Part shown: piece after piece, positions 5,729 through 62,801 of the stretch | How positions within the stretch are numbered: position 1 is the first letter of the stretch | How the letters are laid out: each line of letters begins with the position of its first letter | Source: Erythrobacter sp. KY5 | Lineage (GTDB): Bacteria > Pseudomonadota > Alphaproteobacteria > Sphingomonadales > Sphingomonadaceae | Direction of reading: 5' to 3' | Assembly (NCBI RefSeq): GCF_003264115.1 | Contig: NZ_CP021912.1 | Location: 3,083,001 to 3,147,000, forward strand | DNA: 64,000 nt | Program-made: the position numbers and the translations under genes | Notes under the pieces: model-generated | What the model saw: only the letters and a program-made list of their open reading frames with translations | What the model was told of the DNA's origin: nothing | Databases searched by the model: none

Positions 5729-6853
5729 ATGCCCCGCATTCAGGCTCTTCTGCTGGCAGCATCGGCCCTTGCGATGACCGGCGTTCCGGCGACCGCGCAG
5801 GCACAGCCTGCCGCCGACCCCCAGTTCGAAACCTTCGCACCCAAGGGCGCGCCGATCGACCACACGATCGACTATTCGATCTGGGACGAAGCGATGAAGA
5901 ACCTGGTCGTTTCGATGGGGCCGAGCCTTCGTGAGACCGCGGGCTCTCCGCCGCAGAGCTTTGGCACGCGTCGCCAGTACGGGCACACGTCGCGCTATCG
6001 CCTCGAAGGCTCGCGCATCATGTTCAGCTTCCTCGATGCCGACATCCGCGCAAGCTTCGGCGAATATCGCCGCGACCTCGAAAGCGTCGCCGACAAGGTC
6101 GATATCCAGTCGCTTTCGCGCAACGAACAGCTCGCATACTGGATCAATCTCCACAACGTCGCGATGATCGAACAGATCGCCGATGCATGGCCCGTGCGCC
6201 AGCCGCGTGAGATCGAAATCGGCGGCGTTCCGCTTGACGAAGCCCGCTTCATCACCGTCGAAGGCATCGCGATGAGCCCGCGCGACATTCGCGAAAAGAT
6301 CGTCTTTGCCAACTGGAGCGATCCCAAGGTCATTTACGGCTTCTGGCGCGGCGAGATCGGTGGTCCTTCGATCCAGCGCGAAGCGTTCAACGCCGACAAT
6401 GTCGCCCGCCTGCTCGATCGCGGTGCGCGTGACTTCGTGAACTCGCTTCGCGGCACGCAGAAAAGCGGCTCGACCCTTGAGGTGTCGGAACTCTACCGCG
6501 AGGCAGCGCCGTTCTTCTTCGACAATTTCGAAGCCGACCTGCGCGCGCATATTGCAACCTACGCTGATGAGGACACAGCCGCGCTGCTCGCCGGCACCAC
6601 CCGCTTGGAAGCCTCGGTGAGCGAACCCGACATCGCCGACCTTGCAGGTGGCGTGCGTGAGCCGAGCTACCAGAACATCCAGGGCGCCGACGGCAACCAG
6701 GCAAGCTTCCGCATTCCGCAGAGCATGCAGCGCCTGCTCGCCCAGCGTGAAGAGAAGTTCCAGCGCATCATCCGCGAGGGCCGCACCGGAACGGTCACCT
6801 TCTCGAACATCGACCTGCCCGGCGATCCGGAGGGTGACGGCGAAGTCGAATAA
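5729..6853 (+). CDS. Exported DUF547 protein, copy 1 of 4
   Basis: A 374-residue protein with a Sec signal peptide (residues 1-25, ending TAQAQPA). The DUF547 core is NEQLAYWINLHNVAMIEQI, followed by PRDIREKIVFANWSDPKVIYG, FWRGEIGGPSIQR and DFVNSLRGTQ. No cysteine occurs in the whole protein, so a thiol mechanism is unlikely despite the domain's distant link to papain-like folds. It ends in FSNIDLPGDPEGDGEVE, a tail shared by copies 2 and 3. A good AGGAAGGA site precedes ATG 5729. A strong terminator follows, so this copy is its own transcription unit. The biochemical function of DUF547 is unknown. Confidence 0.88.
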   Translation: MPRIQALLLAASALAMTGVPATAQAQPAADPQFETFAPKGAPIDHTIDYSIWDEAMKNLVVSMGPSLRETAGSPPQSFGTRRQYGHTSRYRLEGSRIMFSFLDADIRASFGEYRRDLESVADKVDIQSLSRNEQLAYWINLHNVAMIEQIADAWPVRQPREIEIGGVPLDEARFITVEGIAMSPRDIREKIVFANWSDPKVIYGFWRGEIGGPSIQREAFNADNVARLLDRGARDFVNSLRGTQKSGSTLEVSELYREAAPFFFDNFEADLRAHIATYADEDTAALLAGTTRLEASVSEPDIADLAGGVREPSYQNIQGADGNQASFRIPQSMQRLLAQREEKFQRIIREGRTGTVTFSNIDLPGDPEGDGEVE

Positions 6854-6879
6854 GACAGACCGGAAAGTCTCAGCATCAG

Positions 6880-6921
6880 AAAAAGGCCGCAGGAACCAGC
6901 GTGGTTTCTGCGGCCTTTTCT
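6880..6921 (+). terminator. Rho-independent terminator after DUF547 copy 1
   Basis: A long stem AAAAGGCCGCAGGAACC pairs with GGTTTCTGCGGCCTTTT (one wobble pair) around a five-base loop AGCGT and is followed by CTTACTT. It lies 27 bases after the stop codon. Confidence 0.9.
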
Positions 6922-7016
6922 TACTTAACCGCGAAATATTGTTACATAATTGAAAAGTCGGGGTTTTTGAGGCATGTAATGTCGCATCATTGATTGCAGC
7001 AAGGAACCGTTTCCTC

Positions 7017-8243
7017 ATGCCCGGCTTTCGTCTCCCCGCCCTTTCCATCGCCGCGTCGAGCATCGTCGCGCTTTCCGCTATGCCTGCTGCTGCGGAAAGC
7101 ATGGTCCCACAGGAACGACCTGAAAGCAGCGCAGAAGAGCCCGCATCCTACATCCCTGCATCCACCGAAGGCACGAGGCCCGCTGCTGACGACCGGTTCG
7201 CGATCTTCACCCCGACCGACGCTCCGGTTCGCCACCGCATCGACTTCGAGAATTACGATTACATCTTGAAGAACATCGTCATCGCAATGGGGCCGAGCAC
7301 GCGCCAATTGCCATTCCGCCGGGCAGAAGCGGTGGGCACCCGCATCAGGCAGGGACACAAATCGCCGTACAGGCTTGAGGGCAGCCAAGTCATGTTCCTG
7401 TTCATGGAGAATGATGCGAAGGCCGCTTTTACCGACTACCGGCGCGAGCTGGAGGGGATCACCGACACGCTCGACATCGCCAGTCTGCCGCGCAACGAGC
7501 AACTGGCTTTCTGGTTTAACTTCCACAACATTGCGATGCTAGAGCAGCTCGCAACCAACTGGCCCACGCGCGAACCGGCAGAGATCGAGATCGATGGTGC
7601 GCCGCTCAACGATGCCAAGTGGCTGACCGTGCGCGGCATTCCGATGAGCCTGCGCGACATTCGTGAGAATATCGTCTTCGCCAACTGGAAGAGCCCGAAG
7701 GTCATTTACGGTTTCTGGCGCGGTGACATGGGCGGACCCGCCCTCGAGCGCGAGGCCTACACTGCGGCCAATGTGAACTCGCTCCTCGATATTGCGGCGG
7801 AAGATTTCGTCAATTCCTTGAGAGGAACCCAGAAGCGCGGCGATAGGCTCGATGTATCGACGCTTTACGACGAAACGCGCGAATACTACTTCCCCGATTT
7901 CGAGACCGATGTGCGCGCGCACCTCGCATCTTACGCGCATGAGGAAGTCAGCGAGATCCTTTCCAGGACCAGCACGCTCACCGCCTCGATCAAGGATGGC
8001 ACGATCGCCGACCTGTCTGGCGGAGCGCGCTTTGCAAACTACCTTTTCAATTCCACGCAAGGCAATCCGCTGTTCTACGACGATGCCCCGTCGAGCCGTG
8101 TCCCGATCCCGCTCTGGCTGCATCTCAACGATCGCGAGCGCAAGCTTGAACGCATGGAGCGCCAGGACATCCCGACAGGCCGTGTCATCTTCTCCAATAT
8201 TGACCTCCCGGGCGATCCGCCGAATAAGAACGCTGTCGAATAA
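7017..8243 (+). CDS. Exported DUF547 protein, copy 2 of 4
   Basis: A 408-residue paralogue of the preceding gene. A signal peptide (MPGFRLPALSIAASSIVALS, cleaved after AAA) precedes the core: NEQLAFWFNFHNIAMLEQL, LRDIRENIVFANWKSPKVIYG, FWRGDMGGPALERE and DFVNSLRGTQKRGDRLDVS. The tail FSNIDLPGDPPNKNAVE is identical in copy 3. No cysteines. ATG 7017 follows an AAGGA at 7001-7005; the frame is open from TTG 6990 but that would spoil the signal peptide. Copy 3 starts 12 bases after its stop, so copies 2 and 3 form an operon. Confidence 0.88.
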   Translation: MPGFRLPALSIAASSIVALSAMPAAAESMVPQERPESSAEEPASYIPASTEGTRPAADDRFAIFTPTDAPVRHRIDFENYDYILKNIVIAMGPSTRQLPFRRAEAVGTRIRQGHKSPYRLEGSQVMFLFMENDAKAAFTDYRRELEGITDTLDIASLPRNEQLAFWFNFHNIAMLEQLATNWPTREPAEIEIDGAPLNDAKWLTVRGIPMSLRDIRENIVFANWKSPKVIYGFWRGDMGGPALEREAYTAANVNSLLDIAAEDFVNSLRGTQKRGDRLDVSTLYDETREYYFPDFETDVRAHLASYAHEEVSEILSRTSTLTASIKDGTIADLSGGARFANYLFNSTQGNPLFYDDAPSSRVPIPLWLHLNDRERKLERMERQDIPTGRVIFSNIDLPGDPPNKNAVE

Positions 8244-8255
8244 GGACGCGTTTTT

Positions 8256-9410
8256 ATGAATCCAATCCGCGAAGCTGCACTCTTTGGCGCATGCCTGATC
8301 GCTTTGACTTGCGCGCCCGTGGCGGCGGCACAAGAAGCTGGCGCCATGTATGCCTCAGGTCAGCCTGAAGAAGCGCGCGCCGATCCCTTTGCCATTTTTG
8401 TGCCCACCAACGATCCGATCCGTCACCGGATCGATTACGAGATCTGGGATTTCGCGCTCAAGAATATCGTGATTTCGATGGGGCCTTCCACCCGGTCGCG
8501 GCCCTATGCGGAAACTCCGCCGATGGGCACGCGCGTCCGTCAGGGGCACAATTCGCGATACCGGCTCGAAGGCTCGATGGTTTCGTTCTCCAGCTTTCAG
8601 ACCGAGACCATCGAAAGCTTTGCCGAATATCGCCGCGACCTCGAAAGCGTCGGCGACAAGCTCGACATCTCCTCCCTGCCGCGCAACGAACAACTCGCCT
8701 TCTGGATCAACCTCCACAATGTCGCATTGATGGAGAAGATTGCGGCGGAATGGCCCGTGCGCCAGCCACACCGGATCGAGGTGGACGGTGTGCTGCTCGA
8801 CAGCGCGAAGTTCATCACGGTTGCGGGCGTCCCGATGAGCCTCAAGGACATTCGCGAGCGGATAGTCTTCGCCAACTGGAAGAGCCCGAAAGTCATCTAC
8901 GGCTTCTGGCGCGGCGAAATCGGTGGGCCGGCGCTTGAGCGCATGGCCTATACCGGCAACAATGTCGGATCGCTTCTGGACCTGGCGGCAGAAGATTTCG
9001 TGAACTCGCTGCGCGGCACGCAGAAACGCGGCGACCAACTCGACGTCTCGCGGCTCTACACCGAAGCAGCGCCCTTCTATTTCCCCGATTTCGAGAATGA
9101 CCTGCGTGCGCATCTGGCCGAATACGCCAATGAGGAAGTCGCGGAAATCCTCGCCGAGACGGGCATGGTGCGCGCCTCCATCGCGGAGCAGGATATCGCC
9201 GATCTGTCAGGCGGATCGCGCGGGGCAAACTATCTTAACGGCTCATCCAGTGGCAGCCGCCCCGGCATTCCACCGGGTGCGGCGCTTCTGCTGGTCCAGC
9301 GAGAGCGAAAGCTTGAGGTGCTGCGCCGCGAGGAAGTGCCGACAGGCCGCGTGATCTTTTCGAACATAGACTTGCCGGGCGACCCGCCGAACAAGAACGC
9401 GGTCGAATAG
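8256..9410 (+). CDS. Exported DUF547 protein, copy 3 of 4
   Basis: 384 residues, the closest relative of copy 2 by motif: NEQLAFWINLHNVALMEKI, FANWKSPKVIYGFWRGEIGG, DFVNSLRGTQKRGDQLDVS and the same terminal FSNIDLPGDPPNKNAVE. The signal peptide contains the only two cysteines (FGACLIALTCAPVAAAQ), so the mature protein has none. It is the second gene of an operon with copy 2. No terminator with a T-run is obvious behind it; only a weak hairpin near 9417-9441. Confidence 0.88.
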   Translation: MNPIREAALFGACLIALTCAPVAAAQEAGAMYASGQPEEARADPFAIFVPTNDPIRHRIDYEIWDFALKNIVISMGPSTRSRPYAETPPMGTRVRQGHNSRYRLEGSMVSFSSFQTETIESFAEYRRDLESVGDKLDISSLPRNEQLAFWINLHNVALMEKIAAEWPVRQPHRIEVDGVLLDSAKFITVAGVPMSLKDIRERIVFANWKSPKVIYGFWRGEIGGPALERMAYTGNNVGSLLDLAAEDFVNSLRGTQKRGDQLDVSRLYTEAAPFYFPDFENDLRAHLAEYANEEVAEILAETGMVRASIAEQDIADLSGGSRGANYLNGSSSGSRPGIPPGAALLLVQRERKLEVLRREEVPTGRVIFSNIDLPGDPPNKNAVE

Positions 9411-9521
9411 CTCCACTAGGTCATATGCCTGATGGCCTAGGCTGCTCGCGTTCAGCGCGAGTCCATCAATTAAGGGTAAACTCCTGATTCTCGGACGTAT
9501 TTTGTCAGGTGGAGGCATTAA

Positions 9522-10715
9522 ATGATCAAGTCCCCGCAACTTCGTTTCGCCGCAGCTTTGACTGCTTCAGCGGGGCTTGTCGCGCCGCTTGCCGCTGAAA
9601 GTCCGGCAGCGGTCGCTCCAGCGCAATCTCAGGCAGGCAGCAGCACGGCTAGGGTCGACACGGCGCTTACCCGTTTCGCCCCGCAAGCCGATCGCCGCGA
9701 ACATCGCATCGACTATGAACACTGGGACGAGGCGCTGGCATGGATGGTCGTTCCAATGGGGCCGTCCGTGCGCCAAGGTGCACCCCGGGTCAATCCGACC
9801 ACAGGGACCCGGCGGATCTATGGTCACGAATCGCGCTTTCGTCTTGAAGGCAACCGTGTCGCATTCTCGTTCCTCAATGACGAGATACTGACCGGGATAA
9901 GTGATTATCGCGCAGCGCTTGAACGCGTGGGGTCCGACCTCGATCTCACCGCGATCCCGCGCAATGAACAGCTGGCCTTCTGGCTGAACCTCCACAACGT
10001 TGCCGTCGTAGAGGCGCTGGCGAAAGAATATCCGCTGAGCGAGCTCGATGCCTCGATTGATGACGCCAAGTTGGTGACAGTCGCAGGCGTGTCGCTTTCG
10101 CCGCGCGAGATTCGCGAAGGCATCGTGTATCCAAACTGGCGCGATCCGAAAGTCATCTACGGCTTCTGGCGCGGAGCGATCGGCGGTCCCTCGATCCAGC
10201 GGATCGCCTTTACCGGCGACAATGTGGACGCCCTGCTTTCGCTGTCAGCCGAGGAATTCGTGAATTCGCTGCGCGGTGTCGAACGCTGGGGCGGTGCGCT
10301 GCGGGTCAGCCCGATCTATCAGGAGGCGGAGCCGTTCTATTTCAGCGAGAATGACAGCCTGCGCGCGCACCTGTCGCAATATGGGCGCGAGGACGTGCGA
10401 GAGCTGGTCTCTGAGACGCAACAGGTCGCTTACACGGATCTGGAAACCGATATTGCCGACCTGTCTCGCGGTGAGAAAGAGATGGTCTACTCACCGCTGC
10501 AGATCATCCAGTGCCGCGGGGCCTGCGATCCGAACACGATTGGGGTGTCTGCCGCCATTTCGGTCCGCAATCGCCCACATCTCGCGATCCAGCGTCTCAT
10601 GATTGAGCGTCAGTACAAGCTGGAACGGGCCGCGAAGCGGGGCATTCGCACCGGCATGGTAATCTATGGCAATGGCGAATATTCCGAAGGCGAAGCGCCG
10701 CCTGAAGTCGAATAG
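9522..10715 (+). CDS. Exported DUF547 protein, copy 4 of 4 (most divergent)
   Basis: 397 residues with signal peptide (about 1-24). The core is conserved (NEQLAFWLNLHNVAVVEAL, PNWRDPKVIYGFWRGAIGG, EFVNSLRGVERWG), but the copy has drifted. It alone carries a two-cysteine insertion, CRGAC, near residue 330, and it ends YGNGEYSEGEAPPEVE instead of the shared tail. A strong ribosome-binding site (GGTGGAGG) precedes ATG 9522. A 111-base gap from copy 3 suggests its own promoter. The Cys pair could form a disulfide in the periplasm. Confidence 0.87.
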   Translation: MIKSPQLRFAAALTASAGLVAPLAAESPAAVAPAQSQAGSSTARVDTALTRFAPQADRREHRIDYEHWDEALAWMVVPMGPSVRQGAPRVNPTTGTRRIYGHESRFRLEGNRVAFSFLNDEILTGISDYRAALERVGSDLDLTAIPRNEQLAFWLNLHNVAVVEALAKEYPLSELDASIDDAKLVTVAGVSLSPREIREGIVYPNWRDPKVIYGFWRGAIGGPSIQRIAFTGDNVDALLSLSAEEFVNSLRGVERWGGALRVSPIYQEAEPFYFSENDSLRAHLSQYGREDVRELVSETQQVAYTDLETDIADLSRGEKEMVYSPLQIIQCRGACDPNTIGVSAAISVRNRPHLAIQRLMIERQYKLERAAKRGIRTGMVIYGNGEYSEGEAPPEVE

Positions 10716-25523: not shown

Positions 25524-25955
25524 TTAGTCGTATTGCTTTGCGATCAGGTCGCCAAAGCGTTCGCCTTCGCAGATTTCGTTGAACACCTGCTGGACGACGG
25601 AGCGTTCCGACGCTTCGAGCTGGTCGCTCTGAAGCGCTTCTTCGAACTTGTTCTTGATGTAGTCTTCGCCTTCTTCTACGCGCTCGGCGGCGGCTTCGTC
25701 GTTGTCCTCGAACGCCGAAGTGATGCTCTGCCACATCTGATGGGCTTCGCCGGTCAAGGTGCCTTTGGTCACGAGCTCGTCGCCCTGCCGCTCCAGTTCC
25801 GCATTCATCTGGCGAAGCGTATTTTCACGCTCGCTGCAGCGCTTTTGGAGTGCCTGCTTAAGCTGAGGACTGTCAGCCTTTTCGTGGGCCTGGCGGTAGC
25901 CTTCGACAGAATCGAAAGTGGTATCGGTGAGTGATTTGAAAACCGTGCTGCTCAT
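25524..25955 (-). CDS. DUF2383 (PA2169-type) ferritin-like four-helix protein
   Basis: 143 residues, all helical: FDSVEGYRQAHEKADSPQLK, RCSERENTLRQMNAELERQ, then AHQMWQSITSAFEDNDEAAA and VVQQVFNEICEG. The pattern matches the DUF2383 family, which has a ferritin-like fold and is often linked to stress or stationary phase; its activity is not known. ATG 25955 is preferred over 25964 because the AAAAAGGA site is then properly spaced. Own terminator, so monocistronic. Confidence 0.8.
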   Translation of the reverse strand: MSSTVFKSLTDTTFDSVEGYRQAHEKADSPQLKQALQKRCSERENTLRQMNAELERQGDELVTKGTLTGEAHQMWQSITSAFEDNDEAAAERVEEGEDYIKNKFEEALQSDQLEASERSVVQQVFNEICEGERFGDLIAKQYD

Positions 25956-26205
25956 TTTTTGCATCCTTTTTGAAATACTTAGATGCAGGTGCAACACGGG
26001 GCGGACGACAAAGTGCCAAAATAATTCGGGTATGAGCCAAGCTGGCTCTGTGTTGAGCCAAGTTGAATTGGGTCGGGCGAGAGACCGCCAGCAAATTGAC
26101 GGCTTCTGCCCCACCCGGACGCGGCCGTTTTCCTACTCGCAGCCGGTTTGCTATCGGGCGGAAAGCTCTTTCAAATTGTCGATGCTCGCAAACCGCAGAT
26201 CGCGC
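25956..26205. other. Intergenic region upstream of the DUF2383 gene
   Basis: Together with the adjoining repeat (26206-26366) this forms a 422-base gene-free stretch. It should hold the leftward promoter of the DUF2383 gene. A direct repeat TGAGCCAAG occurs at 26033-26041 and 26054-26062, spaced 21 bases (two helical turns), which would suit a regulator binding site. No gene is seen. Confidence 0.4.
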
Positions 26206-26366
26206 CGCGCCAAGGTGACACTTTGCACCCTCGTACAGTGACGCTTGGCCCTGCTAAGGTTACACTTTGGGCGCTAAGGTGACGCTTTTGGCGCTCAAAG
26301 GTGACACTTTGCCGGTTTTGGCCCTGGACCGTGTAACATGCGGTCCACTTCTCGGGCAAAGCGCTG
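26206..26366 (-). repeat. Composite iteron-like repeat, copy 1
   Basis: Read on the minus strand, a conserved block of about 45 bases (GAGAAGTGGACCGCATGTTA continuing into CACGGTCCAGGGC) contains a hairpin GGACCG/CGGTCC. It is followed by five degenerate tandem units of about 21 bases with core AAAGYGTMACC. A second copy with the same block and again five units is at 62453-62611. This copy begins about 10 bases after the stop of the leftward SDR gene. No known element was recognised. Confidence 0.8.
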
Positions 26367-26377
26367 GCGCGAACCGC

Positions 26378-27184
26378 TCATTCGCCCGACGGATCGACGA
26401 AGTTGCCCGCGCCGACATTGGCGTTCACCACGCCGCCATCGATCGCGATGGTCGTGCCCACCACGTAGTCGCCAGCGCGGCTCAAGAGGTAGATCGCGCC
26501 GCCTGCCATGTCCTCGGTCACGCCGACGCGCCTTGAGGGGATGCCGCGCTTGACCAGATCCTCGTTGTCGCGCGCCGCCTTGTTCATCGAGCTCGGGAAA
26601 GCGCCCGGCCCGATGCCGTTGACGATGATGTTGTCGTTCACCAGCTCTGCGGCCATGCGGCGGGTCAGGTGGATAAGGCCCGCTTTCGACGCCTGATAGG
26701 GATAGGTCGGCCATGGATTGGTCTTCATCCCGTCGATCGAGGCGATCATCAGCACCTTGGCCGGACGCTCGGGCGTGCCGGCGGCCTTGAGCAGGCCGTG
26801 CAGCTTCTGCGTCAGGAAAAACGGCGTCTTGACGTTCAGGTCCATCGTGCGGTGCCAGCCCGCTTCGCTGAACTCGGTGAAGGGTTCGCCCCACGCAGCG
26901 CCTGCATTGTTGACGAGGATGTCGAGCTTGTCCTCGCGGCTCGCAATCTCGTCGGCAAGCTGCTGGATGCCGTCCATCTGCGACAGGTCAGCAACAAGGC
27001 CGATGACCTTCTCACCAAGCTCTGCGGCGGTTTCGTCAACCTGTTCCTTCTTGCGGGCGACGATGTAGACGCGCGCCGCACCCGCAGCGAGCAGGCCTTC
27101 GACGATCATCTTGCCGATGCCGCGCGATCCGCCGGTGACAAGAGCGATGCGCCCTTCGAGACCGAAAAGTGAATTGATGTCCAT
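26378..27184 (-). CDS. Short-chain dehydrogenase/reductase
   Basis: 268 residues, classical SDR. The cofactor loop is VTGGSRGIGKMI, then NNAGAAWG, catalytic Ser in MIASIDG and YQASK. The ARKKEQ after strand 2 suggests NADP(H) preference. The layout resembles RhlG-like reductases and 3-oxoacyl reductases. It is the last gene of a leftward unit with two acyl-CoA dehydrogenases (12-base gap to the next gene), so a role in oxidation of acyl or hydroxyacyl intermediates is plausible. Confidence 0.9.
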   Translation of the reverse strand: MDINSLFGLEGRIALVTGGSRGIGKMIVEGLLAAGAARVYIVARKKEQVDETAAELGEKVIGLVADLSQMDGIQQLADEIASREDKLDILVNNAGAAWGEPFTEFSEAGWHRTMDLNVKTPFFLTQKLHGLLKAAGTPERPAKVLMIASIDGMKTNPWPTYPYQASKAGLIHLTRRMAAELVNDNIIVNGIGPGAFPSSMNKAARDNEDLVKRGIPSRRVGVTEDMAGGAIYLLSRAGDYVVGTTIAIDGGVVNANVGAGNFVDPSGE

Positions 27185-53423: not shown

Positions 53424-55461
<2,038 letters not shown>

Positions 55462-62068: not shown

Positions 62069-62464
62069 GTGGCGAAGCCTCCCTTTCCTACACCGCCCAA
62101 ATCTGCCTTAACCTCGCAGATGGCACCCTCCCCGACCCCTCCCCGCTCGCCCTCTCTCCAATCCGACAACACCCGCTGGACCGGCGCTAAAGCCGCCGCG
62201 TTTCTCAAGGCGCTGGCTCGCATGGGTAAGGTTGCGCCTGCGGCTCGTTCGGTGGGGATGAGTCGGCAGGCGGCTTATCGGTTGCGGGCGCGGGCGCCTC
62301 GGTTTGCTCGGCTTTGGGACATGGCGCTTGATAACGCCCGGCGCGAGGCGGCGGGGCGGCGTGCGGGGCGCTCTGCCACTCATCCCCTGCTGGCTCGCGA
62401 ACCCGAAGCGCATGGTTGGGCGGATGGTTCGGCACAGGCTTTTGCGGCAAATACGCTACGGTGA
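62069..62464 (+). CDS. Small HTH-type protein
   Basis: 131 residues from GTG 62069. Residues 1-35 are Pro/Ser-rich. FLKALARMGKVAPAARSVGM, SRQAAYRLRARAPRFARLWD is a helix-turn-helix found in many short sphingomonad proteins. The last codons (NTLR, stop) lie in the composite repeat copy 2, so the C-terminus may have been replaced. ATG 62120 is an alternative start. Confidence 0.6.
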   Translation: MAKPPFPTPPKSALTSQMAPSPTPPRSPSLQSDNTRWTGAKAAAFLKALARMGKVAPAARSVGMSRQAAYRLRARAPRFARLWDMALDNARREAAGRRAGRSATHPLLAREPEAHGWADGSAQAFAANTLR

Positions 62465-62611
62465 CACTTTGCGCGGGTAAGGTGACACTCTCGCGCGCCA
62501 GGGTGACGCTTTTGCGCGCAGGGTTACGCTTTGGCGCTCAAGGTGACACTTCGGGGTGTTTTTGCCCTGGACCGTGTAACATGCGGTCCACTTCTCGAAC
62601 AAAGCACTGGA
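62453..62611 (-). repeat. Composite iteron-like repeat, copy 2
   Basis: On the minus strand the conserved block (GCCCTGGACCGTGTAACATG on plus, continuing CGGTCCACTTCTCG) is identical in 34 bases to copy 1, and is again followed by five degenerate units with core AAAGYGTMACC. It lies between the small HTH gene and the adhesin gene. The hairpin GGACCG/CGGTCC is retained. Confidence 0.8.
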
Positions 62612-62801
62612 ATCGCTCGGCTTGTAGGAAAGGCGGCTGGCGGCGCTCTGCCCGGTGCTGCGACGGGCGCGGCTGCTGCGCGGGCGAGAGGTGGTCGCCA
62701 TGCGCGTGGCTGACGGTGTCGTCGGGGACCTCAGAACACGCAGCAAGCGCCATGATGGCGGCAAAAGGATGAGCGGAAAGGAGCAGGCGGAAGGCGCGCA
62801 T
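62538..62801 (-). CDS. Possible small lipoprotein running into the repeat
   Basis: From ATG 62801 the frame gives a lipoprotein-like signal MRAFRLLLSAHPFAAIMALA-AC (Cys after LAA), then a low-complexity tail (DDTVSHAHGDHLSPAQQPRP) that ends inside repeat copy 2. The signal is convincing but the rest is not, so this may be a truncated gene. With the repeat this accounts for the gene-poor 62465-62929 stretch. Confidence 0.3.
   Translation of the reverse strand: MRAFRLLLSAHPFAAIMALAACSEVPDDTVSHAHGDHLSPAQQPRPSQHRAERRQPPFLQAERFQCFVREVDRMLHGPGQKHPEVSP

Follow-up and report, generated by a model that had tools for sequence, protein, structure and literature searches.

Dispersed two-part repeats of Erythrobacter sp. 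KY5 as candidate operators for orphan proteins of the phage terminase small subunit type

In REP/REPIN systems, a single gene encoding a RAYT transposase is accompanied by matching short elements dispersed in intergenic regions, and in plasmid iterons, phased direct repeats of ∼21 bp adjoin the gene for a helix-turn-helix (HTH) protein. A repeat-bearing site beside the gene of a terminase small subunit (TerS) is known in phages (PMC4737164), and roadblocking by LacI is established in vivo (PMC4132739). Here we describe a repeat of the Erythrobacter sp. KY5 chromosome (G000; 3.31 Mb, single contig), one copy of which, copy 1, is probably a composite operator for two orphan TerS-type proteins, perhaps acting as an elongation roadblock. 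Genomes of relatives are designated by other G-numbers and loci by L-numbers.

Only two copies of the repeat were present in the 64-kb window, that is, the whole stretch of DNA analyzed (Table 1). They were identical over the 34 bases noted in a preliminary description of this DNA, within a surrounding 53-nt repeat that was 92% identical. The five units at about two helical turns described there for copy 1 were also borne out, unit starts being 23, 21, 20, and 22 bases apart in the unit scan. The unit core given then, AAAGYGTMACC, is real but corresponds to the minus-strand reading of GGTKACRCTTT, so that the order on the plus strand is array and then block. Similarly, the nearby stop codon is present but belongs to the minus-strand SDR-family gene, ∼12 bases from the end given for the repeat. 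In copy 2, the ATG of the gene designated gamma lies 36 bases past the box, and its stop codon falls within the first array unit. An inverted TTTCCTAC box was observed after the copy 2 block (62624-62631), and several blocks of the TCC type (see below) had an inverted TTTCCTAC box or CCTGTAGGA a few to ∼35 bases downstream. Elsewhere in the window, a TPP riboswitch was recognized with Rfam (53424-53533), and a coding stretch was present in four diverged tandem copies (6039-10237; repeat families D1-D5).

Table 1. Positions in the window of copies 1 and 2 of the repeat and of the neighboring features
Feature	Position	Strand	Remark
ORF with DUF2383-domain gene, divergent from copy 1 box	25524-26114	-	PF09537, 5.5e-29
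TTTCCTAC box, copy 1	26129-26136	+	Promoter -35-like; no ATG at +34 to +38 of copy 1
Copy 1, whole repeat	26206-26366		
Array, copy 1	26206-26312	+	Five ∼21-bp units, core GGTKACRCTTT
T run ahead of block, copy 1	26316-26319	+	
34-base stretch common to copy 2	26321-26354	+	
Alpha block GGACCGTGTAACATGCGGTCC, copy 1	26326-26346	+	
SDR-family gene, convergent, downstream of copy 1	26378-27184	-	PF13561, 1.6e-44
TTTCCTAC box, copy 2	62084-62091	+	
Gamma gene, predicted 114-aa orphan TerS-type HTH protein	62120-62464	+	PHROG 4044, 5.9e-10; array companion
Array of five units, copy 2	62460-62552	+	
34-base stretch common to copy 1	62564-62597	+	
Alpha block, copy 2	62569-62589	+	

A search of the whole genome, as the preliminary description had proposed, yielded 34 copies in Erythrobacter sp. 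KY5. The 22-mer TGGACCGTGTAACATGCGGTCC gave 34 matches (22 exact and 12 with one mismatch) and none in the reversed control; the core GGACCGTGTAACATGCGGTCC occurred 34 times, and BLAST with the whole repeat likewise returned 34 matches. According to the unit scan, 17 of the 34 copies contained no array unit and 17 contained one to six, with unit starts mostly 20 to 23 bases apart (∼42 where a unit was missed); the lone unit of the one-unit copy is probably due to chance. A run of at least three T's was observed within 26 nt ahead of the block in 33 of the 34 copies. A terminator hairpin before the T run was rejected as a general feature (mean z of -0.04 to -0.99 in five genomes), although single cases such as L076 were strong. 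No match to the repeat was obtained in the plasmid search, no system was found by PADLOC in the material submitted to it, and NCBIfam gave no match above a cutoff.

As judged from the relatives, the repeat is composed of two separable parts, the block and the 21-bp array. Thus, G018 contained 17 blocks and no array, and the blocks read GTGTCTCAT GTGTCTCCA in G001 and G003 and GTGTTCCAT GTGTTCCAT in G012, with the surrounding features arranged as in Erythrobacter sp. KY5. The general form of the block is YNGAC, one base, and two adjoining 9-bp units GTGTxxCAn, which across the Erythrobacteraceae are mostly a tandem pair. The hairpin GGACCG/CGGTCC, first taken for a conserved feature of the block, can indeed form with 6 bp in the core of Erythrobacter sp. 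KY5, but it is not kept between species, being limited to the AAC/CGG block type, the version of one species group, in which the second unit is degenerate. Matches to the pattern GACNGTGTNNCANGTGTNNC were obtained in 32 of the 61 genomes of the genus, with a maximum of 27 places per genome among the matches listed and 2 in total in the control; this pattern misses the AAC/CGG type, and such blocks are therefore uncounted in most of the genomes lacking alpha (see below). The 21-bp array was found in 3 of the 61 genomes.

The block is very probably paired with a protein designated alpha, and the array with gamma. With the copy 2 ORF as the query (E ≤ 1e-12), gamma was detected only in G000, G012, and G032 of the 61 genomes, and the array pattern occurred at 15, 6, and 19 places in these three, respectively, and at none in the other 58 (controls, 0). 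This co-occurrence (3/3 versus 0/58; Fisher test, 2.8e-5) is in agreement with the earlier suggestion of a protein matched to the phased units. In all three genomes gamma was followed by array and block; they do not form a clade on the chpT tree, on which G012 groups with the array-less G002 (100/99).

For its part, the alpha gene of Erythrobacter sp. KY5, at ∼2.4743 to 2.4749 Mb, has a block within its own reading frame. The in-frame block inside the alpha ORF reads GPCNMRS (L043, 1610-1631, in G018; L033, 1539-1615, in G000). Alpha was detected (E ≤ 2.5e-49; next score, 6.5e-30) in 26 of the 61 genomes, all of which had at least one block, as established by GACNGTGTNNCANGTGTNNC counts in 22 genomes, by separate searches in G000 and G018, and solely by the block beside alpha in G038 and G058. 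Among the 35 genomes without alpha, 10 had at least one block of the type searched, 6 had three or more (G002, 13; G008, 4; G010, 4; G013, 8; G015, 14; G070, 12), 4 had a single one, and 25 had none. The association was strong when phylogeny was ignored (26/26 versus 6/35 with three or more; Fisher test, 1.4e-11). Against the pairing, no alpha was found in the block-bearing G002, G008, and G070, and the units of G002 were anatomically intact despite this. Nor was alpha found in G010, G013, and G015, genomes that are 74 to 86% complete, the last of which has a partial alpha match.

At 22 of the 26 genus loci, the exceptions being G044, G047, G064, and G065, a block was located at most 1.2 kb past the alpha HTH, and its type varied with the recognition helix. 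Helix SRAH[LC]YRxRR was accompanied by block CTC at nine loci, SHQTxYRxRR by AAC/CGG at five, S[PA]QTAYRAR[RQ] by TCC at four, and ISRSTAYRMRR by GTC at two, while ARATAYRMRR with CTC-AA and APMTAYRWRR with AAC-AAC were each represented by one locus. The matched series of helices and sites comprised the dinucleotide types CT, TC, GT, GA, CA, and AA. Among the named alpha-like loci (best 80 of 189), the helix was identified in 79 and a block in 47, a count in which one block that looks false (L239) was left; against the pairing, 32 of the 79 loci had no block that the script found within 1 kb. In a column scan of alignment A3, in which 34 of 38 rows had a block type, mutual information with the block dinucleotide was highest for residue 64 (z of 10.4), followed by residues 57 (10.3), 65 (9.4), and 55. 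In the AlphaFold model of alpha from Erythrobacter sp. NAP1 (L288; mean pLDDT, 87.3), residues 64 to 73 constitute the HTH recognition helix, so that residues 64 and 65 are its start. Columns outside the HTH also reached z values of 5 to 7, and therefore shared descent explains part of the association between helix and block. A tree of the alpha region that follows the HTH required 11 changes of block type, and in the sister pair L241 (RS, GT) and L251 (RA, CT) helix and block changed together. Tests on independent pairs, with 2 or 3 pairs per type, cannot reach 0.05; no pair was contrary.

By sequence homology, alpha and gamma are orphan relatives of phage TerS. All 38 alpha members and five companion HTH proteins, including gamma, matched PHROG 4044 (terminase small subunit). 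Foldseek with the alpha model returned nothing at E ≤ 0.5 against the PDB, whereas named small-terminase entries were among the best BFVD hits (3.4e-4 to 5.1e-4). In a second-look PDB comparison, Sf6 TerS was the best hit (Z of 8.2, a modest value for a helical protein; rmsd of 3.9 over 97 aligned residues), and SPP1-like TerS had a Z of 5.2; a sequence search of solved structures gave nothing relevant. A TerL-like motif was absent from the fetched flanks of all 80 named and all 26 genus alpha loci; of 30 homologue loci, 9 had one, none of these within the genus. Several boxes precede HTH genes, and several such genes end at a block or a related repeat.

Further combinations of this kind were observed. 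A third pair of TerS gene and site in Erythrobacter sp. KY5 comprises L144, L309, and L311 to L316 (∼0.82, 0.95, 1.38, 1.58, 2.40, 2.56, 3.21, and 3.29 Mb) and is laid out as box, ORF, and then GGAAAGTCACACnTCCnACA (7 of 8 loci) and TTTTTCCAAACCACCCnnTTGCGTGG (5 of 8), the HTH gene at L144 having both. Another TerS paralogue, with helix SRQSAYRLRS (L123, L125, L135, L299, and L157 at chpT of G004), has a gene ending at a repeat approximating TGACAcGGTGTcACCTTTGTCAaC, and this repeat sometimes contains the stop codon. At L129 of G020, which belongs to a different family in the order, a TGTCCTAC box accompanies a TerS homologue, and GTGACTTTTGTGACTTTT comes directly after the stop; the plan of box, gene, and repeat may thus occur outside the genus.

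In G000 and G018, a TTTCCTAC or TGTCCTAC box was located upstream of the block in 46 of 51 copies; the distance between the two was 100 to 250 bp in 38 of these 46 (counted by hand from the listed positions), and an ATG stood at +34 to +38 from the box in 33, with weak -10-like bases in between. The pattern TTTCCTACN26-29ATG was clearly more frequent than in the control in G000 (28/1), G001 (20/1), G003 (23/0), and G012 (18/1) and near the control level in many other genomes of the genus (e.g., G009, 8/4, and G002, 7/3). By our own assignment according to position, 18 of the 28 places in G000 were at block copies, 1 was at a TerS-type HTH gene (L144), and 7 were at units of the third type described above. 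The frame set by the ATG was open up to the block in all 33 leaders of G000 and G018, versus 8 and 11 of 33 for the other frames (33/33 versus 19/66; Fisher test, 5.9e-13). In leaders of G003, G001, and G012, which were preselected for box and ATG, it was open in 40 of 42, the other frames being open in 16 and 36, so that one control was nearly equal. The median distance from ATG to block was 83 bases in the former set and 76 in the latter. In 17 of 75 leaders the stop overlapped the start of a long ORF on the same strand (ATGA or ATGnnTGA), compared with 3 and 3 for the other frames (P = 8e-5). Genes coupled in this way in G000, with names assigned by reading the translations, include chpT (L018), folP (L021), a threonine dehydratase-like gene (L024), a bamD-like gene (L031), and a MOSC-domain gene (L032).

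Most sites would therefore sit inside a short translated leader beginning ∼36 bases past the box, whose transcription is quite probable. Because of the spacing between box and ATG, we infer that the leader ORF is transcribed as a leaderless message. A leader peptide kept for its sequence was considered and rejected, since the leaders of G000 and G018 run through the block in each of the three frames. By our reading of the ORF map, ∼13 of the 34 G000 copies face a convergent gene, and therefore control of a downstream gene cannot be the sole reason for the sites. The regulatory reading is weakest for convergent copies such as copy 1, whose leader has no ATG.

The positions of 94 block loci were compared across five genomes by means of shared flanking proteins. 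A flank was shared with a block locus of another genome by 15 of 17 loci in G018 and 21 of 34 in G000, and of 39 locus pairs, 26 had both flanks in common. Different block types were joined in ten of the flank-sharing clusters, in one of them only through the gamma gene. Since shared positions carry different block types, the sites would have changed in place as the protein changed. Thus, as in a regulon, dispersed sites occupy conserved gene positions, and the specificities of site and protein covary.

At chpT, 30 of 31 loci (30 plus L113 of G012) could be scored, G043 being scored as empty and G034 not being scorable. The unit was present in 11 and absent in 19, and in the absent state the upstream gene runs directly to chpT. 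Three of the 11 units (G009, G031, and G004) hold sites of another type. The upstream stop lies nine bases from the ATG both with and without the unit (G000, G003, G018, G014, and G045, by eye), and therefore the chpT unit would begin at the old start codon; its box is located in the upstream gene, outside the insert. Presence and absence required 7 changes of state on the tree, 4 of them forced by well-supported branches.

We propose that alpha reads the block and that gamma, encoded directly upstream of copy 2, reads the array. On the model of TerS rings, the HTH domains of an oligomer would touch units spaced at about two helical turns, and the bound protein would meet RNA polymerase in elongation and not at initiation. 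Such a roadblock would regulate the gene that follows and, where genes converge as at copy 1, would restrict antisense transcription. A roadblock is favored because the site lies tens to ∼200 bases past the putative start, mostly too far to block initiation, and because the leaders are kept readable up to the site; for the sites in general it is a tentative proposal from sequence comparison, and the proteins may also serve there as activators or antiterminators. Physical binding, ring wrapping, and the roadblock with its direction are what we infer from these comparisons. More broadly, it is an evenly balanced proposal that a domesticated TerS family forms separate chromosomal regulators in the Erythrobacteraceae, in which each paralogue has a site next to its own gene and further sites at several to tens of leader ORFs that are leaderless and coupled, its target being the elongating polymerase, and the specificity of the whole set of sites switching with the start of the recognition helix.

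The preliminary description had compared the repeat to a plasmid iteron or a transposon end, and neither comparison was supported, the copies being dispersed on the chromosome with unrelated interiors in three array-less genomes and a hairpin that is not conserved between species. A related alternative is a family of mobile elements, in which HTH gene, box, and block are autonomous and the short box-to-block units are nonautonomous derivatives. HTH genes and short units do have the same two ends, and the chpT unit, starting at the ATG, is either cleanly there (11) or missing (19) in the 30 scorable genomes, with at least four changes forced on the tree. Nevertheless, this is unlikely: no pair of copy interiors was similar at E ≤ 0.01 among 15 in G018, 18 in G003, and 16 in G001 (142 hits in G000 were attributed to the arrays), different block types occupy shared positions, the leaders keep an open frame and are coupled to genes, and the chpT box lies in the upstream gene rather than in the insert. 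Chance or a decayed duplication in two copies, which the preliminary description had also envisaged and which the two copies in the window taken by themselves would suggest, can be virtually dismissed, given 34 copies in G000 versus 0 in the control and positions common to relatives, 15 of the 17 copies in G018 being at flank-sharing loci.

That the companion proteins are TerS homologues also raises the idea of dispersed pac-like sites, at which orphan TerS would start packaging for a gene transfer agent or phage; the pac site of SPP1 contains direct repeats and spans the start of terS (PMC4737164), resembling the site-beside-gene arrangement seen here. The lack of a TerL-like motif in the fetched flanks of the 80 named and 26 genus alpha loci, and a leader ORF with start coupling, which has no evident role in packaging, make this quite improbable. 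An RNA-level device in the leader (hairpin, attenuator, or pseudoknot) acting in the transcript is likewise very unlikely. The 6-bp hairpin that the G000 core can form would lie within an apparently transcribed and translated leader, and in some copies the loop is matched by a complementary sequence farther downstream (by eye), but the hairpin is absent from other block types and broken in G058, there is no general terminator hairpin ahead of the T run, the riboswitch mentioned above is the sole Rfam match in the window and lies away from the site, and no compensating change was seen by eye in an alignment of 51 rows. A composite operator for alpha and gamma is thus the reading that we prefer for copy 1.

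In the literature searched, mostly outside the subscription journals, we found no paper on orphan TerS regulators or on the repeat itself, and a set of chromosomal orphan TerS proteins coevolving with tens of sites would in that sense be new. If the proposal is true, a packaging protein has been turned into a family of regulators with readable specificity, and the matched series of helices and sites would allow a test of how the tens of sites in a regulon can switch their recognition sequence without the regulon collapsing. It would also explain a frequent unannotated repeat of the Erythrobacteraceae and place leader ORFs ahead of core genes such as chpT and folP.

Compared with known systems, the repeat shares with REP/RAYT the combination of one gene and matching short dispersed elements; here, the companion is a TerS homologue, copies have interiors that bear no relation to one another, and what they share is a direct repeat, the conserved palindrome of REP/RAYT being absent from the blocks of other species, which are direct repeats. 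As in plasmid iterons, phased direct repeats of ∼21 bp adjoin a gene for an HTH protein, but the arrays are chromosomal, with 16 or 17 in one genome, and the protein is of the TerS family and not Rep. No Rep gene was found beside the sites: by our reading, 23 ORFs that adjoin 21 of the G000 loci encode housekeeping proteins or others that are not Rep, copy 1 lying between the DUF2383 and SDR genes. With phage TerS and pac (SPP1/SF6 and Sf6), the system has in common a homologous protein family, a predicted TerS-like HTH arrangement, and direct repeats beside the gene. It differs in that no TerL was found adjacent, tens of sites are dispersed in leaders of chromosomal genes, and reading appears to be sequence specific, in contrast to the SF6 TerS domains, which bind DNA with little sequence specificity (PMC4737164). 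Finally, the LacI roadblock operators (PMC4132739) resemble the present sites in that a protein site lies downstream of a promoter, in the path of the elongating polymerase, whereas here the protein would belong to the TerS family, the site would lie in a translated leader ORF, and several paralogues would have separate families of sites.
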